This document shows positions 31,971 to 45,977 of a DNA stretch of 64,000 bases, piece after piece. Below the pieces are notes generated by a model. The model did not search any database and had not been told where the DNA came from. It saw only the letters and a program-made list of their open reading frames with translations. The stretch is from assembly GCF_000327285.1 (NCBI RefSeq), contig NZ_HE998568.1, positions 390,810 to 454,809 on the forward strand, read 5' to 3'. Numbering within the stretch: position 1 is the stretch's first letter; every line of letters begins with the position of its first letter. The position numbers were made by a program, and so were the translations under genes. This DNA comes from Holdemania massiliensis AP2. GTDB lineage: Bacteria; Bacillota_I; Bacilli_A; Erysipelotrichales; Erysipelotrichaceae.

Positions 31971-32013
31971 ATGAATAACTGTGATACTGCGGTAATTCCG
32001 CAATGGAGGAAAA

Positions 32014-32475
32014 ATGAAAAAGATCTTAATCTTAACCCTTGCCTTAGCCTGCCTGATGATTGCGGGTTGTTCCAGTGCGCCAAAAAAGCAAACAGCTTCC
32101 TGCAGCTACACTCAGGAAGGACTTATGACTGCAACGTACAACCTGACAGCGGAAGAAAATCAGATCACTGTCATGTCCATGCAGATGACTTATGACAAAG
32201 CAATGTTCGGAAACATGGACTTTTCAGCACTTTCTGAGGAAGAAAAAACTCAAATGACCGATGCGATTTTGGCGCAGTCTGGTTTTTCAACGGAAATCAA
32301 AGGGATTAAAACAACGGTTGACATTCAGGATACCATCAGCGCTACGATTGAAATCGATCTGAAAGAAGTAGATCCGACGATGTTAAGCAATCTTGGAATT
32401 GATCTTACCAATACAGAAATGAATATGGACACCATTGTTCAGCAGATGAAAGATCAAGGTTTTCAGTGCAAATAA
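32014..32475 (+). CDS. YehR/DUF1307-like lipoprotein
   Basis: 153 residues after GGAGG. Signal peptide with lipobox (LMIAGC), mature domain with CSYTQEGLMTATYNLTAEEN and ATIEIDLKEVDP. The size, the early Cys and the beta-rich repeats agree with the YehR/DUF1307 lipoproteins. Expected outside the membrane; role unknown. A terminator follows. Confidence 0.75.
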   Translation: MKKILILTLALACLMIAGCSSAPKKQTASCSYTQEGLMTATYNLTAEENQITVMSMQMTYDKAMFGNMDFSALSEEEKTQMTDAILAQSGFSTEIKGIKTTVDIQDTISATIEIDLKEVDPTMLSNLGIDLTNTEMNMDTIVQQMKDQGFQCK

Positions 32476-32544
32476 ACGCTGCTGGACTGAAACTTTAGTT
32501 AAACTGCCGGATTTTTTAGTCTTGGGATTCATCGATTTTTAGAA

Positions 32545-32595
32545 AAAAGGAACAGATTCGACTGGGCAGTTGCGCCAATCTTGTCTGTTCCTTTT
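32545..32595 (+). terminator. Terminator of the DUF1307-like gene
   Basis: AAAAGGAACAGA pairs with TCTGTTCCTTTT around a 27-base loop that can itself fold. The symmetrical arms could stop transcription from either side. Confidence 0.6.
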
Positions 32596-32633
32596 ATCGT
32601 ATTTTCCAATGATCTCTTTACGAAAGAATCGGA

Positions 32634-32820
32634 TTTCATTCCCTATGATGAGTTCTATATCGCTCAACATGACACGGCAGCGCTGCTGCCTTTAATCTTG
32701 TTTCCAGATCAGCTTGACTTCATGTCAGCGGGGGATAATTGCCCGCCGCTGCTTAAGCCTGCTTTTGACGATTTCTCCCTCCGCCTGCAGAGGTGGGGGA
32801 TCCTCGCTTCTTTCGTTAAA
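32634..32820 (+). repeat. Dispersed structured repeat, copy 2
   Basis: 187 bp matching 9931..10120 at roughly 80-85% by eye. Hairpins: GGCAGC/GCTGCC at 32676..32690 (loop differs from copy 1 but the stem is kept), a GC-rich AGCGG/CCGCT hairpin around 32727..32750, and CCTCCGCCT/AGGTGGGGG with GCAG loop at 32778..32799. In the last stem the A-T pair of copy 1 becomes G-T, which pairs only if the plus strand is the RNA. It occupies most of the 398-base gap before the DUF3604 gene; the rest is terminator. Confidence 0.8.
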
Positions 32821-32873
32821 GAAAAGCTTTCCTTGTTCGGATAAAATTCTGATTTTTCAGCAAAGCACCGTGC

Positions 32874-35093
32874 TTATCCGCGCTTGACCCAGATCGGAGA
32901 ACACCATGCGCAGTGATCATCGGCCTGTTCCACGCGCAGATAGTAATAATCTTCTTCGCCGCGTTCACTGTCTTCCACTGTGAAGTCCATCGCCTGACCG
33001 CAGCCTTCCATTTCAACAAGAACTTCGTTATTCTTGATAATCTGAACTGTGCGGAGATCATTCACGGCCAGCACGCTGACATCCAGCTTAACGCTTTCCC
33101 CAGCCGGGATCATAATTTCTTCACCCATGTGATGGCTGCCGATTTTAAGCGAAGCCAGAATTCGGGCGCCGCTGGTGCCATAGGTGAAGCGGTTATAAAT
33201 CGCCGACCAGACGTTTTCACTGGTCAGTGTCGGTACGAAAGCGCCCAAGATTCCGCCTTCCACACCATGCTCCATCTGATGCGAATCTGAACCGGCAATA
33301 AAGCCCAGATGATAACCGCGGGCCAGGGCGTCCTGCGCGCAGTGCCGTTCAAATTTCATGATGTTTTTGGTATATTTTGACTGATTTTCAAATTTTTCGT
33401 AATCCGCATGACGCGAGAAAATTTCAACGACGCGCTGGACTTCCGGATCATGGTAGTCCCAGTCTGTCGCCGCTGAAACCAGCCCCCAGTTGGCTGCCGG
33501 ATGATGCGGAATACACTGACCGCCATCTTTCTTGATGCTCGCAAACAGAACTGTCGGATTATTGCCTTCCGGGTCGGTGCTGCGGTACAGTCCGCCGGTG
33601 CTGGATGGATAGTAAACATTCTTATGTCCGAAGTCGTGCTTGTATTCGTTCGACGTCCATTCATAAGCTAACAGAACCGCAAAGTTCTTTTCGCCATTGA
33701 ACAGATTACGGGTCGTACGATTCCATTCCCATTCCGAATCCGTCGCGATATCAGGATAATCATCATGATCGGTTAAGGCGCAGAAATCCATCTTGGCGTC
33801 TTTGATTGCATAATGATAATACTGATCGATCTCGCCTAAGGCATCCGACAGATTCGACTGCCCGTGAATATCACCAAAAGTTAAAGTCAGGTTTTCATAG
33901 CCGTTTTTCTTCAGCCATGCCGCAACTTCTTCCTCGCTGCGGCTGTCCAAGGCTTTTTCGGCCGGAATCGGCTGCACGAACTGGTCAATCTTGTTTTCAA
34001 TCTCCAGATCATAGAACTGCGGCAATACCTCCAGGGCAACTTCATTGTAGACAATCGATGCATAACGGTGCATATGGCCGTTCTTATTGCCAAACTGCCA
34101 GATATAATGCAGAACATTCTTTTCATCCAAAGCGATATGCGGACGCACAGCACACTGGCTGTCATTGTAGGTAATCACGACGGGTTGAGACCAGACGCCT
34201 TCCAGATCCCGGACACGGATGATCGCATTGTATTTTCCCCAAGTATACGTCACGACCGTATAGCCTTGAGAATTCGCTGTAATATCAATGTTATTGTACC
34301 AGTTGCGGTTTTCTGTCAGCACGGTATAGTTGGAAACGACAGCCTGACCTGCTTTGACTTCAACGTCAGCGACGTTATTGCTGAAATAACAATGCTTGCC
34401 ATTCTCATACCAGGCCACTGTCACTTTGTTTCCAACCCGGGTCATCACCGGATGCGTGCTGTAAATCGCCGTTTGATTCAGTTTGATTTCTTCGCCCCAC
34501 ACGCCGTCGATTTTAGCACGGACAACGACATCATAATTGACGCCGTTATACAAATCATAGGCAACAAAGCAATGCCCCAAACCATCGTGATCAAAGCACG
34601 GACGATAGCTTTTCATGGCGGTATTCACCTTTTCCCGTGTTACGGTTTCACCCAGAGTAGCAACGAGGGTATCGCTGAAACCAACGCCCTGACGGTTATA
34701 GACAACAACCGGATGCGTTCCGTCATCCTTTACCGATGGATAGAACAGAGCTTCACCTTCGTCGATCACCTGAACAGCCCCGAATACCCCGTCTTTGTAT
34801 TCGCGGACACACAGCTTCCAGACTTCGTTTTCAAATTCGGACCAGGCCGTGATAATCCGATCATTGAAAGTGTGCATACTTGGCCGCAGCGCCAGGCCGG
34901 AGCCGGAAATCTGAACTTCGTTATGCGGATGATTGTCGATCATCTGCGCGAACTGAATCACCTCCGTGTGATCGAGATATTTCTCCCAAACCACAAAGGT
35001 TTCGTTTTGGCTGTTGACGGTGACATCCGGATATTGGCAGCTGCTCTGCCAGATATCGGTAATCTCAACGGACGTACGCTTGAAATGTTCCAT
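32874..35093 (-). CDS. DUF3604/PHP-type metal-dependent hydrolase with N-terminal propeller-like domain
   Basis: 739 residues from the ATG at 35093, after AAAGGAGG; no signal peptide, so cytoplasmic. Residues about 1-380 show repeated strands (ITAWSEFENEVWKL, VTVAWYENGKHCYF, VVTYTWGKYN) like a beta-propeller. The C-terminal part is a PHP-type metal site: GDIHGQS (usual HxH with the second His as Gln), LTDHDDYP, LAYEWTS, CIPHHPAANWG and GFIAGSDSHQ. Related proteins (DUF3604, CehA/McbA) cleave phosphoesters or carbamates. It starts 10 bases after the permease stop, as the last gene of the nucleoside-type importer operon, which suggests it works on the imported substrate. Confidence 0.8.
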   Translation of the reverse strand: MEHFKRTSVEITDIWQSSCQYPDVTVNSQNETFVVWEKYLDHTEVIQFAQMIDNHPHNEVQISGSGLALRPSMHTFNDRIITAWSEFENEVWKLCVREYKDGVFGAVQVIDEGEALFYPSVKDDGTHPVVVYNRQGVGFSDTLVATLGETVTREKVNTAMKSYRPCFDHDGLGHCFVAYDLYNGVNYDVVVRAKIDGVWGEEIKLNQTAIYSTHPVMTRVGNKVTVAWYENGKHCYFSNNVADVEVKAGQAVVSNYTVLTENRNWYNNIDITANSQGYTVVTYTWGKYNAIIRVRDLEGVWSQPVVITYNDSQCAVRPHIALDEKNVLHYIWQFGNKNGHMHRYASIVYNEVALEVLPQFYDLEIENKIDQFVQPIPAEKALDSRSEEEVAAWLKKNGYENLTLTFGDIHGQSNLSDALGEIDQYYHYAIKDAKMDFCALTDHDDYPDIATDSEWEWNRTTRNLFNGEKNFAVLLAYEWTSNEYKHDFGHKNVYYPSSTGGLYRSTDPEGNNPTVLFASIKKDGGQCIPHHPAANWGLVSAATDWDYHDPEVQRVVEIFSRHADYEKFENQSKYTKNIMKFERHCAQDALARGYHLGFIAGSDSHQMEHGVEGGILGAFVPTLTSENVWSAIYNRFTYGTSGARILASLKIGSHHMGEEIMIPAGESVKLDVSVLAVNDLRTVQIIKNNEVLVEMEGCGQAMDFTVEDSERGEEDYYYLRVEQADDHCAWCSPIWVKRG

Positions 35094-35103
35094 AGTTCCT
35101 CCT

Positions 35104-36012
35104 TTATTCATCTTCATATTTACCCACACCGGCAGGCGGCTGAATGTTCTTGACGCCAAAGGCCAGAACCAGCAGCGTGACGATGTACGGAATCATTTGA
35201 ACCAGCTGCGAAGGAATTCCGTAGCCTTGAACATAAATCTGAACGGCGTCGCACAACGCAAACAGCGAGCCGCAAAGCAACACGCTGAGCGGATTGTAGC
35301 GCGAGAGGATCGCGATGGCGATCGCAATGTATCCGCGGCTGGCCGACATATCCCGAACAAACATATTCAGACTGTCGATCGACAGATAGGCCCCAGCTAA
35401 ACCAGCTAAGGCGCCGCAGACCAAAACGCCGATATATTTCATCCGGCGGACCGGGATGCCCATGCTGCTGGCCGCTTTCGGGTTTTCGCCAACCATGCGC
35501 AGCCGCAGGCCGAACGGCGTCTTAAATAAGATAAACCAGCTGAGAATACAGGCCGCAATCGCAAAGATCAGAAGAACAGACTGGCGGCTGAAAATATCGC
35601 CCAGAATCGGAATATCCTTTAGAAATGTCAGTTTGGTATTGACCGAAGCCACGGCTTCAGAGTTGCCTTTATTGCCCCAGATAATCTGCATCAGCAAGGT
35701 CGACGCCGCCGTCGCCAATAAGTTTAAGCCGATACCGCTGATGACCTGATTGACTTTGTAGCGGATACACAGAACGCCATGGCATAAACCAAAAATCATT
35801 CCGCCCAGGATTCCGCACAACAAGCCGATCCAGGCATTGCCGGAATAGAAGGAACCTACCGCCGCGGTGAACGCACCGGTCAGGATCATGCTTTCCAAGC
35901 CGAGCGCCATAATCCCGCTGCGCACGGAATACACGCCGCCCAAGGCCGCTAAAATCAGCGGAATCGACATTGAGAACATCGTGCTTAAAATGCCTGTCAC
36001 ATTATTCAGCAT
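35104..36012 (-). CDS. nupQ: Nucleoside-type ABC permease (NupQ/YufQ family)
   Basis: 302 residues, about 8-9 hydrophobic segments. Starts MLNNVTGILSTMFSMSIPLI; LAALGGVYSVRSGIMALGLE and FKTPFGLRLRMVGENPKAA are typical of the smaller permease in BMP-dependent importers. The start overlaps the nupP stop by 11 bases. With NupP it forms the membrane channel. Confidence 0.88.
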   Translation of the reverse strand: MLNNVTGILSTMFSMSIPLILAALGGVYSVRSGIMALGLESMILTGAFTAAVGSFYSGNAWIGLLCGILGGMIFGLCHGVLCIRYKVNQVISGIGLNLLATAASTLLMQIIWGNKGNSEAVASVNTKLTFLKDIPILGDIFSRQSVLLIFAIAACILSWFILFKTPFGLRLRMVGENPKAASSMGIPVRRMKYIGVLVCGALAGLAGAYLSIDSLNMFVRDMSASRGYIAIAIAILSRYNPLSVLLCGSLFALCDAVQIYVQGYGIPSQLVQMIPYIVTLLVLAFGVKNIQPPAGVGKYEDE

Positions 36013-37072
36013 GACGCTGTCCTCCCTTCTTCTTCCGGTCTGCGCCGATCAGCGCGCGGATCAGCAACGGCGCTGAAACAAAGATAACCACCAGCGCCTG
36101 AATCACGCTGACAAATTCCGTTGGAATCTGACTCATCATGTTCAGATACATCGCTCCGGTTTTCAAGGCGCCGAAGATGATGCCGGCCAGAACGATTCCC
36201 AGCGGCGAATCACTGGCCAGCGCTGCCACGGAGATGCCGCTGAATCCATATCCTGGCGAAAAGCCGCTGATGAAACGCTTGCCGACACTGGTTACATGCA
36301 CAGCTCCGCACAAACCGGCCAGCGCGCCGCTGAACAGCATTGCTTTCATCATGACGCCGCCGACCTTGATGCCTGCCGTTTCCGCGGCCTTCATATTCAA
36401 ACCCACCGCCCGGATTTCATAGCCGAAGCGTGTTTTCTCAAGGATGAATTTAACTACAAGAGCCGCGATCACGGCGATCACAATCGCCCAGGTCAGCTGA
36501 TAACCGGGAATCATTTTGCCTAACAGCGCGCCTTCAACAATTTTGTTGGTCTGGGCGACTGCCCCTTCGGCTTTCAGCGGATAATTGACCAGATAATCAC
36601 AAAAATTAATGATGATAAAGTTTAACATCGTTGTCGTGATCACTTCATTCGATCCAAACTTAACTTTCAGAAAGCCGATCAGCGCGCCGGACAAACCGCC
36701 GCCGATCACTCCGCAGATTAATGCCGCAAGCAGGTGGATCACCCCCGGCAGCGGCAGCGGCGTCATACCGACCAAGGCCGCAACCATCGCGCCGGTATAC
36801 ATCTGGCCCTCAACGCCCAAGTTGATCAACGTTGCCTTTTTGCCGATCATAAACGCCAGACCGGTAAAAATTAGCGGCGTCGCCTGAATTAACGTATTAG
36901 TGAAGGAACGCACCGATCCCAATGAACCTTCAATGATCACGGAATATGCAAAGATCGGATCATAGCCGCAAAATAACATGATAATGCAGCTGACCAGAAT
37001 CGCCAGCATAAAGGAAACCAGCGAAATCACGATGGAGCTGGTTTGCATCAAACGGTTAGACAGCTTGCTCAT
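36002..37072 (-). CDS. nupP: Nucleoside-type ABC permease (NupP/YufP family)
   Basis: 356 residues, about 9-10 hydrophobic segments. LIQATPLIFTGLAFMIGKKA, INLGVEGQMYTGAM and EKTRFGYEIRAVGLNMKAAE are the family's marks. Start after AAAGGAGG, overlapping the nupO stop by 17 bases. Confidence 0.9.
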   Translation of the reverse strand: MSKLSNRLMQTSSIVISLVSFMLAILVSCIIMLFCGYDPIFAYSVIIEGSLGSVRSFTNTLIQATPLIFTGLAFMIGKKATLINLGVEGQMYTGAMVAALVGMTPLPLPGVIHLLAALICGVIGGGLSGALIGFLKVKFGSNEVITTTMLNFIIINFCDYLVNYPLKAEGAVAQTNKIVEGALLGKMIPGYQLTWAIVIAVIAALVVKFILEKTRFGYEIRAVGLNMKAAETAGIKVGGVMMKAMLFSGALAGLCGAVHVTSVGKRFISGFSPGYGFSGISVAALASDSPLGIVLAGIIFGALKTGAMYLNMMSQIPTEFVSVIQALVVIFVSAPLLIRALIGADRKKKGGQRHAE

Positions 37073-38579
37073 GACGCGCCTCCTTTCCGCCGGTCATCAA
37101 CAATCCTAACGACAGTTCATCGGCGTCCTCTGCTTGCTGCACGCTGACGATCCGGCCATCATAGATCACCGCGATCCGGTCAGACAGCGAACGAACTTCA
37201 TCAAGATCAGCCGAAATTAACAAAATAGCCTTGCCTTCATCGCGCAGCTGCAGCAGCTGATGATGAATATATTCCATCGCGCCGACATCCACGCCGCGGG
37301 TCGGCTGAGCCACGATCAGAACATCCGGATTCTGCTTGAAAACGCGGGCAATGACAACCTTCTGCTGATTTCCGCCGGACAGCGAGGAAACCAGTTCACG
37401 GGCATTCGGCGTTTTAATCATATATTCATTGACCGCTTCATCCGCATAGCTTTGAATATTTTTCTTTTGCAGCATGCCCTGCTTCAGAAACTGCGGCGCG
37501 TCATGGTAGCCTAAGATCAGATTATCTTCAATCGACATTTCGCTGACTAAGCCGCGGGTCAGCCGATCCTCCGGAATATGCCCGATTTTATGCTTCAAAA
37601 ATGTATGCGCATCGCCATGGATCGACTCCAGACCCATCGTGATCGTTCCGGAATCCGCCTTGCGCAGTCCGGTCAGCACTTCAATCAATTCCGTCTGACC
37701 ATTCCCCTCAATCCCGGCAATGCCGAGGATTTCGCCTTTGCGGATCGTCAGCGATATTCCGCTGAGCACCTGCACGCCGCGTTCGCTCAGCTTGAGATCC
37801 TGAATCCGGAAATAGTCTTCACCCAGGTTGGTATTCTTCCGGCGTACGTTCAGTTCCACTTCCCGGCCGACCATCATTTGAGCCAGATCGTTTGTCGTAA
37901 CATTGTCTAACGGCAGACCGGATTCCACCATTTTCCCATCCCGCAAAACCGAAATGCGGTCGGCAATGGCCAGCGTTTCCTTCAGTTTGTGCGTAATGAT
38001 GATAATGGATTTCTTATCGTTCTTTAAATTCCGCATGATGACAAACAGTTCTTCCACTTCCTGCGGTGTTAAAACCGCGGTCGGTTCATCCAGAATCAAA
38101 ATATTAGCGCCGCGGTAGATCGCTTTGAGAATCTCTACGCGCTGCTGCTCGCCAACCGACAGCTCCTGAACCTTGGCCCGCGCATCAATGTTGAAATGAA
38201 ACCGGTCGATCAGCTCCTGAATCTGCTGTTCGGCCTTTTTTTCATCAATCAGCCAGCCTTTACGCGGCTCATGATTGACGATGATATTTTCCGTTACGCT
38301 CATGACCGGGGAAAGCATGAAATGCTGATGCACCATGCCGATTCCCAGCTGAATTGCGTCTTTGGGGCTCTTGATCTTAACCGGTTTGCCATTGATGCGG
38401 ATTTCGCCTTCATCCGGCGACGTCATCCCGTAGAGGATTTTCATCAATGTTGATTTGCCGGCTCCATTTTCTCCCAGCAGGGAATGAATCTCTCCCTCAC
38501 CTAAAGAAAAGGAAACATGATCAACAGCTCGTACTAATGGATATTGCTTAACAATATCGATCATTTCTACACTGTTCAT
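37056..38579 (-). CDS. nupO: Nucleoside-type ABC importer ATPase (NupO/YufO family)
   Basis: 507 residues with two fused ATPase modules, as in the ribose/nucleoside group. First: GENGAGKSTLMKILYG, LSVGEQQRVEI and LILDEPTAVLTPQE. Second: GIEGNGQTELIEVLTG (degenerate Walker A) and SLSGGNQQKVVIARV. Starts MNSVEMIDIVKQYPLVRAVD after AAGGAGGA. Powers import through NupP and NupQ. Confidence 0.93.
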   Translation of the reverse strand: MNSVEMIDIVKQYPLVRAVDHVSFSLGEGEIHSLLGENGAGKSTLMKILYGMTSPDEGEIRINGKPVKIKSPKDAIQLGIGMVHQHFMLSPVMSVTENIIVNHEPRKGWLIDEKKAEQQIQELIDRFHFNIDARAKVQELSVGEQQRVEILKAIYRGANILILDEPTAVLTPQEVEELFVIMRNLKNDKKSIIIITHKLKETLAIADRISVLRDGKMVESGLPLDNVTTNDLAQMMVGREVELNVRRKNTNLGEDYFRIQDLKLSERGVQVLSGISLTIRKGEILGIAGIEGNGQTELIEVLTGLRKADSGTITMGLESIHGDAHTFLKHKIGHIPEDRLTRGLVSEMSIEDNLILGYHDAPQFLKQGMLQKKNIQSYADEAVNEYMIKTPNARELVSSLSGGNQQKVVIARVFKQNPDVLIVAQPTRGVDVGAMEYIHHQLLQLRDEGKAILLISADLDEVRSLSDRIAVIYDGRIVSVQQAEDADELSLGLLMTGGKEARHEQAV

Positions 38580-38622
38580 TGTTTCCTCCTTTTTCTTTTA
38601 CAAAATCAACTTAGCTGTCAGC

Positions 38623-39711
38623 TTATTTTGTATACTGATTGGAAGATACCCAGCTCTCCAGTTCATCTTCAGTTTCACAGATGACCAGTTCGCCGTTTTG
38701 AATCTTAGCTTTGATATCCGCAATCGCTGCCGCAATATCTTCAGGAACTTCAACATTGGAGAACTCATTGGAATATCCGACAGCTTCTTCCTTCAAGCCG
38801 CTGATCTTGACGCCTTCGGTCCATGTGCCTTCAACTAAAGCCTTGACTTCGTTGTAAACCATTTCGTTAACGTTGCGGATGGAAGTCGCCGCGATCGAAT
38901 CTGGATCGATGGCATTCTGATTTCCGCCGACACCGAACGCATAGCGGTCTGCTTCCTTCGCCGCGTTGAAGACGCCCAGGCCGGAAGCACCAGCAATATG
39001 CTGAATGAAATCCGCACCCTTGTTATACATCGACATCGCAATGTTTTTACCCTTATCCGAATCACTGAAGCTGCCCACTGTCGCAGTCAGAACTTCGCAT
39101 TCAGGATTAACATATTTAACACCTGCTTCAAAGCCAACGACACCGGAACGCAGGTTCGGATTGTCCATACCTAAGATAACGCCAACAACATTGTCAGCAT
39201 TGGCTTTCGGCATCTCTGACAGCGTGCCCAAGCCAGCATAAACGCCGCACAGGAAGGTCTGTTCCTGCCACTTGGTAGAAACGGCGCTGACATTCGGCAG
39301 CTCGACCGAAGAATCAATGATGGAGAATTTCTGATCCGGATAATCTGCCTGAACTGCAGTTAACGCATCATTCTGATCGGTAGCCAGACCAATGATCAAA
39401 TCATATTTTCCAGAATCCGCAAATTGACGATAACCCGCTTCAAAGTCACTGGCTGATTCCGGCTCTACATACTGGAAATCAATGCCGAAGTCCGCTTTGG
39501 CCTGGGTCAGTCCATCATAAGACATGTCGTTGAAGTTCTTATCGCCCAGTCCCCCGGTGGACAGAACGATTGCAACACTGATCTGCTTTTTGTCATCATT
39601 ACCGGCGGTTCCGTTGTTGTCTGTGCCGCCTTGTTTAGCGTTGTTGCCTGAGCAGGCAGCCAGCGATAAAGTAAGCAGTGCGGCGGTACAGAGAAGTCCT
39701 AACTTTTTCAT
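38623..39711 (-). CDS. nupN: BMP-family substrate-binding lipoprotein (NupN/BmpA type)
   Basis: 362 residues. Signal peptide with lipobox (LSLAAC), then an acidic/Asn-rich linker. The BMP fold is seen in VAIVLSTGGLGDKNFNDMSY, YDLIIGLATDQNDALTAV, NVVGVILGMDNPNLRSGVVG and GADFIQHIAGASG. It captures the ligand outside the cell; relatives bind purine nucleosides. First gene of a five-gene operon (nupN, O, P, Q, DUF3604). Cre-like sites in its promoter region suggest carbon-catabolite control. Confidence 0.9.
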   Translation of the reverse strand: MKKLGLLCTAALLTLSLAACSGNNAKQGGTDNNGTAGNDDKKQISVAIVLSTGGLGDKNFNDMSYDGLTQAKADFGIDFQYVEPESASDFEAGYRQFADSGKYDLIIGLATDQNDALTAVQADYPDQKFSIIDSSVELPNVSAVSTKWQEQTFLCGVYAGLGTLSEMPKANADNVVGVILGMDNPNLRSGVVGFEAGVKYVNPECEVLTATVGSFSDSDKGKNIAMSMYNKGADFIQHIAGASGLGVFNAAKEADRYAFGVGGNQNAIDPDSIAATSIRNVNEMVYNEVKALVEGTWTEGVKISGLKEEAVGYSNEFSNVEVPEDIAAAIADIKAKIQNGELVICETEDELESWVSSNQYTK

Positions 39712-39728
39712 CTTTTCCCTCCTGGTAA

Positions 39729-39742
39729 GCTTAACGCTTACA
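39729..39742. promoter_or_regulatory. cre-like site 1 of the nup operon
   Basis: The minus strand reads TGTAAGCGTTAAGC, matching 12 of 14 positions of TGWAARCGYTWNCW. It lies about 17 bases upstream of the start codon. Confidence 0.5.
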
Positions 39743-39762
39743 AATACAGTAGATTTATATCA

Positions 39763-39776
39763 TGGAAAAGCTTACA
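39763..39776. promoter_or_regulatory. cre-like site 2 of the nup operon
   Basis: The minus strand reads TGTAAGCTTTTCCA, 13 of 14 against TGWAARCGYTWNCW, but the mismatch is in the central CG, which usually matters for CcpA. It lies near a possible TATAAA -10 (39755..39760). Confidence 0.4.
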
Positions 39777-39778
39777 AA

Positions 39779-39800
39779 AAAAGTGACAAATGTCACTTTT
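39779..39800 (-). terminator. Hairpin between the 39905 gene and nupN
   Basis: AAAAGTGAC and GTCACTTTT pair around a 4-base loop, and the minus strand continues with Ts. It is placed to end transcription of the leftward gene at 39905; read as part of the nup leader it could be an attenuator. Confidence 0.6.
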
Positions 39801-39832
39801 ACTATATTTCCTGTGATTCTTTCGATTTCTTC

Positions 39833-39846
39833 TGTAAGCGTTTTCC
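39833..39846. promoter_or_regulatory. cre-like site 3 upstream of the nup operon
   Basis: The plus strand reads TGTAAGCGTTTTCC, 13 of 14 matches with the central CG intact. It is the best of the three, but lies beyond the terminator hairpin, about 120 bases from the start codon. Confidence 0.55.
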
Positions 39847-39904
39847 GATCTGTAATGAAATCGTCATTTTCCCGCATAATTACTGACCCTTGGATCCTAT
39901 TTTT

Positions 39905-40402
39905 TTACTTTTTATTGAAAATTTCTTCTATATTCATAGGACCCGCTTGACCACAGCAAACGCGAATTTTTGTAATATCAGTTAATCCTTCAAAATCGGA
40001 TACTTCCACTCCGATACCGTAAACATCAATTCCATAACCAAATCCATCATCCGTTTTTACGTTTAAGTAATAATGTCCGTCTTCTATGCACATAACATCC
40101 AGCAGTCTTCTTTCAATATCTGCTTCATCAAGAAGCATTATCGTTCCTTCTGAATTGACATATTCACCGGCAAATGAAGCAAAATTCCCAGCCATAATTT
40201 CTTCATGATTAAGTCCTGAATCGACTATATTCTCCCCATTCTCCGCCGGATCATGATTAAACTGAGGATTTTCATCCGGACTTAGCTCTATCCCCGCTTC
40301 TTGGTTTAATTCAGAATCTTCCTTGTGGTTTTCCTTCTCGTTTATGTAAGAACAGCCCGTCAATAAAAATGCAACACTTAGACCGATCACCATTTTTTTC
40401 AT
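39905..40402 (-). CDS. Small lipoprotein of unknown function
   Basis: About 165 residues from the ATG at 40402, six bases after AAGGTG; an adjacent ATG at 40405 is equally possible and a longer frame to 40474 lacks a signal at its start. Signal peptide with lipobox (AFLLTGC), then an acidic Glu/Asp/Asn-rich linker and a domain with FASFAGEYVNSEGTIMLLDE and EVSDFEGLTDITKIRVCCG. No family recognised. It lies about 70 bases downstream of the lysR gene and may be co-transcribed with it. Confidence 0.65.
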   Translation of the reverse strand: MKKMVIGLSVAFLLTGCSYINEKENHKEDSELNQEAGIELSPDENPQFNHDPAENGENIVDSGLNHEEIMAGNFASFAGEYVNSEGTIMLLDEADIERRLLDVMCIEDGHYYLNVKTDDGFGYGIDVYGIGVEVSDFEGLTDITKIRVCCGQAGPMNIEEIFNKK

Positions 40403-40470
40403 CATTTTCACCTTATTTCCGTCATTCCTTTTTTGCCACAAAAACAAATCGCTTTCGTCAGTCCGTCTGC

Positions 40471-41349
40471 TCATGTGTTGAAAGCTTTTAAATAATCCAA
40501 AAATCGCTTCACCGGTTCATTTGCGGCTACATCTTTGCGGATTAATGCATGAACCTCGACCTCGACCTCCAAGTCCGCTAAAGGCAAGGCAACAATTCCC
40601 GGATATTCTGTATATTGCCAGCCTGCATTAAAGCTCACCGCAAGTCCGCTTTGAACAAGCTTCATAATCAGATTCCGATCTGATGCATTCAGATAGAAAT
40701 CCGGAGTTTTCAATTTGTTTCTGTTGATCTCCGCCTCCGTTCGGCCTTTCTGTCCAATATCATGAGTGAGTCCGATCAGCGGATACGGCGCAAGATCGTT
40801 GAGGTAGACTTTCTCCTGTTGGGCCAGCGGATGATTTTGCGCCGCAAGCAAAAACAATTTGTTTCTGCGGGTGTAGACAGGATGAAAAGCAGCATCATTA
40901 TAATGACCCGCGGCAATCCAGATCGGAATATCTTTTTGATCCATCGCCTCAATTATTCTTTCCCGGGTATAGGAGCGGACACGGATGGACAGATCCGGAT
41001 TCTGAATGATGAAATTTGCCAGAAAGTCTTTACCAAAACCTTCAGAAAATCCGGATTGAAGACCAATATTCAGTTCATGGGCCGGATTCAGCTTCATTTT
41101 ATCAACTTCCGTAAGAAAATTCTGATGAAACCGAATATAGTCTTCCGATCTTTGATATAACGATTGACCGAACACGGTTGGAACGACACCGGTTCCGGTG
41201 ATGTCAAACAACTGCGCTCCCAGTTCATTTTCCATTTTCTTCATTATTTTGCTTAATCCTTGCCGGGAAATGTAAAGAATTTCCGAAGCTTTATTCAAGC
41301 TCCCTTGTTCAACAATTGTCCGAAAATAATGCAGCTGATTTACATCCAT
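40471..41349 (-). CDS. LysR-family transcriptional regulator
   Basis: 292 residues from the ATG at 41349, six bases after GAGGG. N-terminal HTH: MDVNQLHYFRTIVEQGSLNK and ILYISRQGLSKIMKKMENEL, then a periplasmic-binding-like ligand domain (LNIGLQSGFSEGFGKDFLA onward). It is divergent from the flavinylated reductase at 41473 with 123 bases between, so it very probably controls that gene in response to its substrate. Confidence 0.93.
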   Translation of the reverse strand: MDVNQLHYFRTIVEQGSLNKASEILYISRQGLSKIMKKMENELGAQLFDITGTGVVPTVFGQSLYQRSEDYIRFHQNFLTEVDKMKLNPAHELNIGLQSGFSEGFGKDFLANFIIQNPDLSIRVRSYTRERIIEAMDQKDIPIWIAAGHYNDAAFHPVYTRRNKLFLLAAQNHPLAQQEKVYLNDLAPYPLIGLTHDIGQKGRTEAEINRNKLKTPDFYLNASDRNLIMKLVQSGLAVSFNAGWQYTEYPGIVALPLADLEVEVEVHALIRKDVAANEPVKRFLDYLKAFNT

Positions 41350-41370
41350 ACTCATCCCTCTTTTTTTAAT

Positions 41371-41399
41371 TGTAACACATTGCTGTAATTATTGTTACA
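41371..41399. promoter_or_regulatory. Candidate LysR operator
   Basis: TGTAAC (41371) faces GTTACA (41394), and a tighter pair TGTAA (41384) / TTACA (41395) lies within. It sits in the divergent lysR/reductase intergenic region, as LysR sites usually do. Confidence 0.5.
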
Positions 41400-41472
41400 C
41401 CCAATGCAAACAACTGCTTCTTCTTTCCTGAACACAAGGCATGCTAAATTATTATCAAACGGAGGAAAGAAA

Positions 41473-43794
41473 ATGAAAACATTGATGTCTAAAACAGGGA
41501 TACTCTTTGCCGCCAGCGCTCTGCTGCTCAGCGGCTGTGCCAAATCCGGAACCTCTTCCGGCGCGCAAACAGCCACGGCAAGTGCTCAGGGCTTTGGCGG
41601 TGAAGTTTCCGTCACCGTCACAGTTCAGGACAACGCTTTAACCCAGGTTGAAATCCAGGGCAGTCAGGAAACGGAAACGGTTGGGGGAAAAGCCATGACT
41701 GCACTGCAGACAGCCATGCTGGAAAGCAAGTCAGTCCATGTCGATACCATCAGCGGTGCGACAATCACCAGCGAAGCAGTCTTAAACGCCGCAAAGCAAG
41801 CCTGGAATACGGCTGTCGGTAACCAAACTGCGGCCGCGGAAGTGAAGATGAAACCCGGCACCTATACCGCTGCAGCCCCGGGATTCCGTTCAGCCTGGGA
41901 TATTGAAGTCAGTGTAACAGTCGATGAAACAAATCTGATTTCCATTGACGTCAACCCGGATTCCGCAGATACCGTCGGTATTTTTCAGAGTGCAGCTGAA
42001 ATTCTTCCGCAGCGTATGATTGAGCAGCAGTCCGTTGCCGTCGATTCTGTATGTGGGGCAACTGTTTCCAGCAACGCGATCAAAAGTGCGGCTAAGAAAG
42101 CGATTGCCGAAGCTTTGGAAGCTGCCGGAACCGATCCATCGGCGATATCCGCGTTTGAAGCGGCTGCCGCAAAATCCACTGACGCGCAAGAACTCAATAC
42201 GGATATCTTAGTTGTTGGCTTGGGGGCAGCCGGCACAACTGCGGCTTTAAGCGCTGCAGAAACTTTATCTGAAAAAAATCCGTCCGATGTCTCCGTTCTG
42301 GCCATTGACAAAGCAGGGCGTTATGGCGGTGCTTCCTCGTTATGCGCCGGCGTCTTTGCGGTCAATCCACAGGGATTAGCCGCTAAGTATAACGACGGAA
42401 ATGATTTCACAGACCGCGACGCCCTTTTGGCAGATTGGTTAGACTATGTCGAAGGTGATGCCAAACCGGAAATGATCGAACTTTTGCTGGATGAATCCGG
42501 CAATACATTAGACTGGTTGGTTGAAGATTATGGACTTGAGCTTGAAAAACCGCAGACAGGTTTAACGGAAGCGGATTCCAATGTCGTTCTGTTCTCCTAT
42601 GCGCCGAGCAAGGAAGGAATGACGGTAAGACGTCAGCACAACATCCAATTCTATGACCGCTGCATGGAAAAATTTACTGAAATGGGCGGTCAAATCATGC
42701 TGGAAACCGAAGCTTATGATCTGATCCTGGAAAACGGCAGCATCGCCGGGGTCAAAGCCCGCAGTACGGCCGATGGTACGGAATATATCATCCACGCGCA
42801 GAAGGTCATTATGGGAACCGGCGGGTTCCTGTCTAATTCCGAAATGACCACAAAATATTTATCCAATGAATATTACCCATTATCAGGAACCTGGGACATG
42901 GTCGGAATGAAGCAAAATGACGGCAAGCTGATCGAGTCATCGATCACTCAGGGTGCAGCAACCTATAACATCGGAATGTGCCCGGCTGTTCATATCATCG
43001 GTGCGGCAGGATTCCTGAACAATTTTGAATATCATACCCTGGAAGATCAACTATGCATGCAGACGATGAAGCCAACTAAATGGACGGAAGGGGATCTGCC
43101 GCATTACATGGGCGTCGCCCCGGATTCACTGGCCGTCGATACCAAAGGAAACCGTTTCGCTGATGAATCGCGTCTGAATTTTGATGCTTGGGTTTCAGGT
43201 CCAAACTATTATTCCCTTTACAGTGAGAATCAAATTCGTGCGATTGAAGAACGAGGTCTGCGGACAGCGCCAGCCTACATGATGACTGTAAACTTAGGCG
43301 CTAATGGCTGGGCTCCGGCGGGCACACCAATTCCCAACGCGCATGAAGTCATGGAAGCTGCCATAAAAGCGGGATTTGTTTTCAAAGCGGATACGGTAGA
43401 AGCTTTAGCAGAACAGCTGAATATGGAGCCTGAAATCTTAAAGCAAACGGTCACAGCCTATAATGATGCCTGTGAATCGGGATTGGATGAAGAATTCAAT
43501 AAGAAGGCCGAGAACTTAGACCCACTCTCTGGCGAAGGGCCTTTCTATGCGATCAAAATGACAAATTATCCTTACAGCACTTGTGCGGCCTTGGACGTCA
43601 ATACCAACCTGGAAGTCCTTAAAGCTGATGGTTCACCGATGAATAACCTGTATGCTGCAGGCTTGGATGCCTCCGGCGTGCTGTATTCGGAAAAGAAACC
43701 CTATGTCACTTACGGCGGTGTTGATCAAGGTTTTGCCTTCACTTCCGGCCGCTTAGCTGGAATTCATGCAGCCCAGTCCTTGTCCAACGAATAA
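41473..43794 (+). CDS. Flavinylated lipoprotein reductase with two FMN_bind domains
   Basis: 773 residues from the ATG at 41473, after GGAGGAAAG. Signal peptide with lipobox (LLLSGC), FMN_bind 1 (about 35-115, attachment motif DTISGAT), FMN_bind 2 (about 125-220, motif DSVCGAT), then a FAD domain beginning TDILVVGLGAAGTTAALSAA and ending DASGVLYSEKKPYVTYGGVD, QGFAFTSGRLAGIH. The usual fumarate-site HTMGG/NRLGGN block is absent (YSTCAALDV, YVTYGGVDQG). Likely a surface enzyme using electrons passed through covalent FMN to reduce an unsaturated acid; substrate unknown. Divergent LysR gene is the probable regulator. Confidence 0.88.
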   Translation: MKTLMSKTGILFAASALLLSGCAKSGTSSGAQTATASAQGFGGEVSVTVTVQDNALTQVEIQGSQETETVGGKAMTALQTAMLESKSVHVDTISGATITSEAVLNAAKQAWNTAVGNQTAAAEVKMKPGTYTAAAPGFRSAWDIEVSVTVDETNLISIDVNPDSADTVGIFQSAAEILPQRMIEQQSVAVDSVCGATVSSNAIKSAAKKAIAEALEAAGTDPSAISAFEAAAAKSTDAQELNTDILVVGLGAAGTTAALSAAETLSEKNPSDVSVLAIDKAGRYGGASSLCAGVFAVNPQGLAAKYNDGNDFTDRDALLADWLDYVEGDAKPEMIELLLDESGNTLDWLVEDYGLELEKPQTGLTEADSNVVLFSYAPSKEGMTVRRQHNIQFYDRCMEKFTEMGGQIMLETEAYDLILENGSIAGVKARSTADGTEYIIHAQKVIMGTGGFLSNSEMTTKYLSNEYYPLSGTWDMVGMKQNDGKLIESSITQGAATYNIGMCPAVHIIGAAGFLNNFEYHTLEDQLCMQTMKPTKWTEGDLPHYMGVAPDSLAVDTKGNRFADESRLNFDAWVSGPNYYSLYSENQIRAIEERGLRTAPAYMMTVNLGANGWAPAGTPIPNAHEVMEAAIKAGFVFKADTVEALAEQLNMEPEILKQTVTAYNDACESGLDEEFNKKAENLDPLSGEGPFYAIKMTNYPYSTCAALDVNTNLEVLKADGSPMNNLYAAGLDASGVLYSEKKPYVTYGGVDQGFAFTSGRLAGIHAAQSLSNE

Positions 43795-43813
43795 ACGATA
43801 TTCCTATCCTGTC

Positions 43814-43858
43814 AAGCTGTTGTCGAATGGAGCTATTCAACCGACGGCAGCTTTTTTA
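43814..43858 (+). terminator. Terminator of the two-FMN reductase gene
   Basis: AAGCTGTTGTCG pairs with CGACGGCAGCTT (12 bp including two G-T) and runs into six Ts. Confidence 0.85.
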
Positions 43859-43887
43859 TACCCGACAAAAGACCGGATAAAACAAAA

Positions 43888-43923
43888 CAGGAAACGACTC
43901 TGCCGCAGGCTTGTCCTTTCCTG
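43888..43923 (-). terminator. Terminator of the Crp/Fnr gene
   Basis: On the minus strand CAGGAAA and TTTCCTG arms enclose a GC-rich loop and run into TTTTGTTTT. It lies about 100 bases past the stop of the gene at 44022. Confidence 0.6.
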
Positions 43924-44021
43924 AATCTTTTATGTTTTGACTTTCCTGCTGCTTCTAACCAAACAGCCGCTACACATCAGTTTTCTAGTTATCTGCCGAT
44001 GTGTGAATTTTTTAATTTTGC

Positions 44022-44678
44022 TTACTCTTCCCGCTTTTTAAACAATTTCTTTCTTTGTTCAGAGGTAATGGTTAAGGTATTTCCTTCTTTTCCAATCAGC
44101 CCTTCACTTTTAAACTGGCTGAGCAGTCGATAAACCGTCCGTCGGGAACAGCCCATAAATGCGGCCAGCTCTTCCCTCTTGATCTTGATTCGAATAAGAT
44201 CCCCGCTTGGTTTCAGCGCATCACATAACCGCAGCAGATAATCAATCAGCTTGATATCCATCGAATTGGTAGGATAACGGGATTCGTTAATCGAAGACTC
44301 ATAAAACTGATTAGCCCAGTAACAAATCAAATATTCCTTAAATGGATCACAATCCGACAACAGGATATACAGATCTTCCTTACTGATCCGATAACCGCAG
44401 CAGCGTTTATCAACTTTCAGCGAGCAGCAGTAACGATGGTGATCCGAGAAGATTTCCATCAATCCGACAAAACGGGCTTCATAATTGGTCACATAAGTAT
44501 AGGCAATGCCGCGGGTGTTAACACTCTGCACATCCAGTACGCCTTCGGTGAATATATAGCCGCAGGTAACGGGCGCACCTTTTTCAATGATCGTATCCCC
44601 TGGTTCAAAGGTGACCGGAATCAGCCGCATCCGCACACGTTCGGGAATGGATTCTAAAACTTTCTCAAAACTCTGCAT
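44022..44678 (-). CDS. Crp/Fnr-family transcriptional regulator
   Basis: 218 residues. N-terminal cyclic-nucleotide-type sensor fold (FEPGDTIIEKGAPVTCGYIF, EGVLDVQSVN) and a C-terminal HTH (REELAAFMGCSRRTVYRLLS). Several Cys are present (CCS, CC in the sensor part), but the N-terminal Cys cluster of Fe-S Fnr is not obvious, so it is more like the variable Firmicutes group that sense redox or small effectors. It stands alone between two terminator regions. Confidence 0.9.
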   Translation of the reverse strand: MQSFEKVLESIPERVRMRLIPVTFEPGDTIIEKGAPVTCGYIFTEGVLDVQSVNTRGIAYTYVTNYEARFVGLMEIFSDHHRYCCSLKVDKRCCGYRISKEDLYILLSDCDPFKEYLICYWANQFYESSINESRYPTNSMDIKLIDYLLRLCDALKPSGDLIRIKIKREELAAFMGCSRRTVYRLLSQFKSEGLIGKEGNTLTITSEQRKKLFKKREE

Positions 44679-44822
44679 TCGTACTCACCTCTTGTTTCTC
44701 TGGTAAAGATTATAGCTTATTTTAATAGGGGTGAAAATGCTTTCCTGTAAAAAGTCTCAGATCTTCCGCAAAGCCCTTACGCAAACACTCCTTGGATCAA
44801 ATTTCTACTCTATCCAGCTGTT

Positions 44823-45977
44823 TTAATTTACTTTAGCTTCGCTTGATTCCTGCAGGCATAATTTTTCTTTAGTTGCGGGATGAATCAGAAACTGTTGAAT
44901 TTGCCCGTTTTCCATCTGAACCTGCACTAATAAATATCCTCCCAGGGGTGAAATTTCGGCTGAAACTCCATCTTGAAACTCACTGATGACCACTGTTTCA
45001 GCCCCCTGTTTTCGCATTAACAGAAGTCCGGGCGCTCTCGTACCCGACTGCGCTGAAAGCACAGTTCCATAATAATACCCAGTTTCAGAAATACATACCT
45101 GGCTATTAGCGAGCGAGCCTAACTCCTGGATCTGACCGATTCCATCAGCTCCGGCTTGGAAAACAAGCGTACCCGTTTCATTCTGTGTTTGGAAAAATAA
45201 CTCATTGTCCCGGTTTCCGATATATTCCACAGATGCCCTCTCTGCCCCAAAATCAGGGATAAACGAAATTTCAATCCATTGATCCGGCAAACGTGATGCA
45301 AAATTCCAGATCCAGTATCGCTGCTCAGAAGAATTCGTTTCCTTCTCTGAGTTTCCCGCTCTGACCTGCAAAATTAAGCGTTTGTCAACCGCAGACACAA
45401 CTTCCACTTTTTCACCGCCTTCAACTCGATCCCAGAATGAATTTTCATTGATTGCAAAGCCCTGACTTAACACGATTCGCCGCAAAATATTGTCCGTGAT
45501 GACATAGGCATTTATCCCGTGAACCACGGCTCCCAGAGGGACTTTCAAGATATCTCTGATTTCCCCTGCTGAACGATCCCAAATGACAACCGCTGCGGGA
45601 ATGAAGGATTCATCTTCAAGAAAATAAAATTCTTTTGCCGCAATGGGCAGCGTTGAATCCGATGATGCGGTCAGCCATATTGCAAAATAGCGCTCATTCA
45701 CCACTGTGATGCGCCGGATTTTTATTTCACCCAACGCTTGTTCTGATGCAAAATCCCAGATTTCGGATTCTCCGGTTATCGTATTCATGCGTAAAATAGC
45801 ATGATGATCCAACGTAGGTGTCCATAAAACTCCATCCATCAATATTGAATCGGAATTTTGATCCGTATACCAGCATTCATGACTTTCTGAAATCACCGGA
45901 ACTTTTTCCGCTGCACAGGCACTGACAAGCAGTGCAGACAGGATTAGCCGGAGCCCTATTTTCTGCCTTTTCTTCAT
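44823..45977 (-). CDS. Lipoprotein, propeller-like, paralog 1
   Basis: 384 residues. Signal peptide and lipobox (LLVSAC). The mature part has repeats of WTPTLDHHAILRMN and YYYGTVLSAQSG, the style of a beta-propeller. Its opening (EIWDFASEQALGEIKIRRIT) aligns with the start of the larger protein at 46087 (STWDFVQEANLEPSKILRIT), showing common origin. Function unknown; a surface sensor or binding protein is plausible. Start after AAGGAAG. Confidence 0.7.
   Translation of the reverse strand: MKKRQKIGLRLILSALLVSACAAEKVPVISESHECWYTDQNSDSILMDGVLWTPTLDHHAILRMNTITGESEIWDFASEQALGEIKIRRITVVNERYFAIWLTASSDSTLPIAAKEFYFLEDESFIPAAVVIWDRSAGEIRDILKVPLGAVVHGINAYVITDNILRRIVLSQGFAINENSFWDRVEGGEKVEVVSAVDKRLILQVRAGNSEKETNSSEQRYWIWNFASRLPDQWIEISFIPDFGAERASVEYIGNRDNELFFQTQNETGTLVFQAGADGIGQIQELGSLANSQVCISETGYYYGTVLSAQSGTRAPGLLLMRKQGAETVVISEFQDGVSAEISPLGGYLLVQVQMENGQIQQFLIHPATKEKLCLQESSEAKVN

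Follow-up and report, generated by a model that had tools for sequence, protein, structure and literature searches.

A propeller-bearing CehA/McbA-type hydrolase tied to import genes in Holdemania massiliensis: a putative uptake-and-cleave module

A 64,000-nucleotide stretch of the Holdemania massiliensis AP2 genome (the window) was found to encode a protein in which an N-terminal beta-propeller is joined to a CehA/McbA-type (PHP) metallohydrolase. An importer gene lies directly upstream of the gene for this enzyme in all seven full-length cases found, the type of importer varying, and what is conserved is the enzyme's association with import as such, whatever the importer. We favor, with modest confidence, the interpretation that the genes form a regulated module by which a conjugate, sugar-containing or aromatic, is taken up and cleaved.

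The enzyme gene occupies 32874..35093 on the minus strand, its open reading frame ending at 32874 and its probable start being the ATG at 35093, immediately 3' of an AGGAGG. Counted from this ATG, the protein has 739 residues (761 in the ORF listing, which starts from an upstream TTG). Ten bases separate the ATG from the stop of a permease gene at 35104, and the enzyme gene is the last of the run because the next downstream gene is convergent. The protein scored above the cut-offs of two family profiles, with 30.8 bits for DUF3604 (PF12228; Pfam gathering cut-off, 20.4) and 92.3 bits for CehA_McbA_metalo (NF038032; NCBIfam cut-off, 80) over residues 407-737. The NF038032 cut-off was also passed at loci L005, L037, and L038, the relatives scoring 89.6, 89.3, and 83.9 bits, and the enzyme of a Cetobacterium plasmid fell below it (72.4 versus 80 bits). 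The relative in genome G050 gave no DUF3604 match.

Residues about 20-353 (34035..35036, minus strand) were modeled by AlphaFold, using four sequences, as a seven-bladed beta-propeller of seven sheets, with most ten-residue blocks at pLDDT 62-88 and a few at 43-52. Foldseek comparison with solved structures gave PLL-type sugar-binding lectins as the top matches of the propeller (E about 2e-8, 11-14% identity), followed by sialidases and rhamnose-glucuronate lyase. Since propellers match one another widely, the lectin resemblance is weak and is taken as a hint only. The PHP-type metal hydrolase domain (residues about 400-643; 33165..33896, minus strand) was placed by the NF038032 match and the invariant motif residues. 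It was poorly modeled in both AlphaFold models (four sequences each), too poorly to judge the PHP fold, and the hydrolase profile matched PHP chains weakly (best E, 4e-4). The C-terminal beta-sandwich (residues about 645-738; 32880..33161, minus strand) falls inside the NF038032 match and has strands mostly at pLDDT 60-89. Compared as a whole with solved structures, the enzyme had no credible match. No signal peptide was apparent by eye in its sequence (MEHFKRTSVEITDIW...). The enzyme is probably intracellular.

The enzyme resembles the CehA/McbA carbamate hydrolases (NF038032) in its predicted PHP-type domain, with the C-terminal beta-sandwich inside the family match, and ester-type hydrolysis would by analogy be the probable reaction. 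The enzyme differs from that family, as represented by its profile rather than by CehA's own sequence, in having HGQ in place of HxH at residues 410-412 (33858..33866, minus strand; from the alignment), in its N-terminal lectin-like propeller, and in being encoded in an operon that includes an importer and a Crp/Fnr-type regulator. Its score, above the NF038032 cut-off, therefore places it in the family, from which its HGQ motif deviates in a single metal position. The sequence-only reading had described an HGQ hydrolase with a propeller, encoded last in a BMP-ABC run and ten bases from the permease gene, and this description is borne out by the ORFs, Pfam, NCBIfam, and AlphaFold.

HGQ is kept in all seven full-length proteins (five aligned, plus those of L003 and L004). 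The residues D417, D442-H443-D444, E478, H530, E557, D603, and H605 did not vary among seven aligned sequences, the most distant at about 30% identity, and are those expected to bind metal. A review reports that in carbofuran-hydrolyzing CehA four histidines matter, including His313 and His315 (PMC8292978); these two would correspond to the HxH pair aligned with residues 410 and 412 of the enzyme. A glutamine at a metal-site histidine position could mean weak or lost catalysis, and one explanation is that the protein is no longer a hydrolase, HGQ leaving a binding or sensing protein, or one with a different reaction, attached to an importer. The change of one metal-site residue in seven of seven proteins is consistent with this, as is one reported DNA polymerase PHP domain in which a single altered residue of nine is accompanied by no exonuclease activity (PMC5636811). 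However, the invariance of the other motif residues over seven sequences suggests a working metal site, and a domain-only relative (L006) has glutamine at the other histidine of the motif (QIH), so that single changes occur elsewhere in the family; we regard loss of hydrolase function as very unlikely. Two further domain-only relatives (L039 and L040) have HGH.

When the order was searched, the enzyme was matched in 23 of 315 genomes and at full length in 6, source genome included: four Holdemania (the close relatives being H. filiformis and two other Holdemania), G312 (65% identity), and G050 (46% identity). Wider sampling, with 392 genomes from the phylum and 395 from the class, yielded no further full-length relative, and scans of viral contigs with full-length and hydrolase-domain alignments yielded no relative. 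Of 72,556 plasmid records, 59 matched, one of them at full length (a Cetobacterium somerae plasmid, Fusobacteriota). BMP-ABC genes directly precede the enzyme gene in the four Holdemania and in G312, which belongs to another genus. In G050 (Erysipelotrichaceae) and on the Cetobacterium plasmid, the order is Crp/Fnr-type regulator, glycoside-pentoside-hexuronide (GPH) symporter, enzyme, and the two sets are 77% (enzyme), 68% (symporter), and 53% (regulator) identical, indicating that the trio is common to two phyla. GPH symporters such as MelB or YagG (TIGR00792) are thus represented as importers for the same enzyme in these two cases, although none is present in the window operon. Chance adjacency was dropped as an explanation, given an importer gene directly upstream in 7/7 cases, four of which come from the one genus Holdemania. 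The check set beforehand, conservation of the enzyme-importer linkage beyond the source genome, thus came out positive. What stands of the earlier reading is an enzyme tied to import and probably intracellular; its nucleoside importer and modified-nucleoside substrate are not supported.

The importer operon of the window, all on the minus strand, runs from 39711 to 35104 ahead of the enzyme gene. It comprises genes for a BMP-family solute-binding lipoprotein (38623..39711; PF02608, 4.1e-57), a NupO-like ABC ATPase with a double cassette (37056..38579; PF00005, two stretches), and two ABC permeases, NupP-like (36002..37072) and NupQ-like (35104..36012), both matching PF02653 (BPD_transp_2). Protein family, gene order, and a Phe pair are common to this operon and to PnrA/BmpA/BmpD with NupOPQ-type ABC transporters; the window operon differs in including a hydrolase gene and in a BMP protein with neither the Asp nor the Lys that anchor ribose and with one pocket Phe missing. 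According to two structural papers, the conserved contacts of nucleoside-binding BMP proteins include the pair Phe27/Phe176, Asp98, Asp225, and Lys242 (PMC13325309, PMC7093131). When BmpA numbering (from PMC13325309) was placed on the window protein by alignment, the stacking pair Phe27 and Phe176 and the ribose-side Asp98 were found to be kept, whereas Asp225 is replaced by Gly, Lys242 by Arg, and Phe151 by Gly. A second BMP protein of the same genome (L041) retains all of those contact residues. Judged from the alignment, the two changes to Gly probably widen the pocket. The losses point to an altered ligand, perhaps larger and sugar-like or anionic, without proving it, and an altered nucleoside may also be compatible with the loss of the ribose anchors.

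Both the ribose-anchoring Asp and Lys are kept in 65 of 72 BMP proteins of the order (75 rows minus three repeats, L042, L043, and L047); one of the 72, the BMP protein of L114, was scored by eye outside the alignment and keeps both. Seven of the 72 lack the Asp, five of these adjoining the gene for the present enzyme and two (in G312 and G052) lying directly behind a sulfatase gene, with the qualification that loci L041-L072 have short flanks and that hydrolase neighbors of Asp-keeping proteins were surveyed in part. The sulfatase-associated proteins belong to a second BMP-ABC operon with the sulfatase gene directly before it (L037:13365-19433 in G312; L084:5465-11605 in G052). Among 40 BMP loci with longer flanks, an author-selected subset of further BMP matches, a sulfatase-like gene was seen at one (L111), at a distance of about 2 kb. 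The putative vitamin B6 ABC transporter (NF047927-NF047930) was rejected as an identity for the window importer, the scores lying below the equivalog cut-offs (65/400, 447/670, 151/400, and 176/465 bits).

These results bear on nucleoside salvage, in which the importer would take up a modified or phosphoester-linked nucleoside for cleavage by the PHP enzyme. PHP enzymes are often phosphoesterases, the hydrolase profile reaches PHP phosphoesterases weakly, and BMP family membership together with the retained Phe pair and Asp98 would suit a nucleoside. Against this, Asp225, Lys242, and Phe151 are lost from the window protein, whereas 65 of the 72 BMP proteins compared have both the Asp and the Lys; in two relatives a GPH symporter takes the importer's place, and no nucleoside enzyme was seen among the scanned neighbors. 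No riboswitch was detected at Rfam gathering scores in 32000-45200, around the operon. The nucleoside assignment of the importer made in the sequence-only reading is therefore probably wrong, and we consider nucleoside salvage rather unlikely. The exchange of the importer for a GPH symporter and a BMP protein with the Phe pair but without the ribose anchors make a conjugate a likelier cargo than a free nucleoside.

An aromatic ester or carbamate might also be imported and detoxified, as by the carbaryl hydrolase CehA/McbA, nutrition being secondary. The family match of the enzyme and the Phe pair in the BMP pocket agree with this, and CehA is reported to act on aryl carbamates, plant physostigmine included (PMC8292978). 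It would be odd, however, for a toxic compound to have an active importer; the GPH symporter as partner points to a sugar compound, and one HxH histidine is absent from the enzyme. Detoxification as the main role is thus quite improbable, and we retain the uptake-and-cleave module as the preferred explanation.

A Crp/Fnr-type regulator gene was present upstream in 7/7 full-length cases. In the window, it encodes a protein of 218 residues (44022..44678, minus strand) that matched a CRP model weakly and is 41% identical to the Crp/Fnr-type protein adjoining the BMP gene in L037; on these grounds it is probably the regulator of the module. In G312 the Crp/Fnr-type gene is directly before the BMP gene, and a likely orthologue (40-44%) of the G312 regulator occupies the same position in L005 and L003, the L003 gene being apparently frameshifted in the assembly. 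In the window and in L004, a LysR gene and a flavoprotein gene stand between regulator and BMP. The intervening stretch of the window (39905-43794) holds genes for a lipoprotein, a LysR regulator, and an 800-residue flavoprotein; the LysR and flavoprotein insert is absent from this place in L003 and L005.

An operator-like perfect inverted repeat of 22 bases, AAAAGTGACA-AA-TGTCACTTTT (39779..39800, no strand), was observed 67 bases before the BMP start codon. The core of this repeat, GTGACANNTGTCAC, was found exactly once in each of the five BMP-type genomes, compared with zero for the reversed control, and no occurrence is expected in shuffled versions of the window. In G050 this longer core was not found, and a shorter core, TGACANNTGTCA, lies 111 bases before the regulator gene. 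Two one-mismatch sites occur on the Cetobacterium plasmid, neither of them preceding the unit, and no palindrome was seen in the stretch read before that unit. The Crp/Fnr-type regulator is predicted to bind the palindrome.

Related hydrolases were viewed in other settings. Short CehA-like enzymes (L073-L080), which carry HSN as an N-terminal motif and of which one is in the source genome (G000:C3 about 110000), have as neighbors in 8/8 loci mannose-family PTS genes, GntR-type regulators, and either one sulfatase or two; NanE, SIS, or radical-SAM genes are sometimes present as well. Pfam names were obtained for ten selected proteins. These enzymes of Erysipelotrichaceae resemble the present one in their related hydrolase domain and adjoining importer genes but differ in their length of about 515 residues, in lacking propeller and palindrome, and in using a PTS instead of an ABC or GPH importer; the one tested was under the CehA/McbA cut-off. 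On a Palleronia plasmid (L082:4573-9452), a CehA/McbA member above the cut-off directly follows ABC importer genes and is near protocatechuate-pathway genes. Import with intracellular cleavage thus appears as a recurring setting among the loci viewed, which were selected by similarity and not at random. An intact HxH, as HSH or HAH, is present in very large CehA-like proteins from Erysipelotrichaceae and other members of the class, whose open frames exceed 900 aa (L019, L022-L028, and L033-L036). The domain-only QIH relative (L006:4186-10237) is near two genes that look sulfatase-like by eye.

Taken as an uptake-and-cleave module, the genes would work as follows. The Crp/Fnr-type regulator probably senses the compound or a signal and exerts its effect through the palindrome that precedes the BMP gene. 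From their families, the BMP lipoprotein would capture the compound for import through the ABC permeases. The propeller-CehA/McbA enzyme would then hydrolyze an ester-type bond inside the cell (a carboxylic, carbamic, or phosphoric ester, to go by its family) at a PHP-type metal center with glutamine for one HxH histidine, and the propeller, given its fold resemblance, may hold the sugar part of the substrate. More tentatively, and at somewhat less than even likelihood, we propose an undescribed catabolic unit of gut bacteria, made up of a dedicated Crp/Fnr-type switch, an importer that can be exchanged, and a PHP enzyme of the HGQ type bearing a lectin-like propeller. The enzyme would free a usable sugar or amine from a conjugate originating in the host or the diet. 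The proposal includes two BMP-ABC subfamilies that have departed from nucleosides, the second of them accompanied by a sulfatase. No account of this module was found in the literature at the level of titles and abstract openings, a coverage outside which most subscription journals fall.

A BMP-type importer is often taken for a nucleoside transporter, and a simple residue test marks a subset without the ribose anchors; every Asp-less BMP protein in this sample is encoded beside an intracellular hydrolase. The exchange of importers narrows the substrate to a compound within reach of both a BMP-ABC transporter and a GPH symporter, so that searching for it becomes practical. CehA/McbA-type enzymes, whose best-known role is in the breakdown of pesticides, would also gain a natural setting in gut bacteria.
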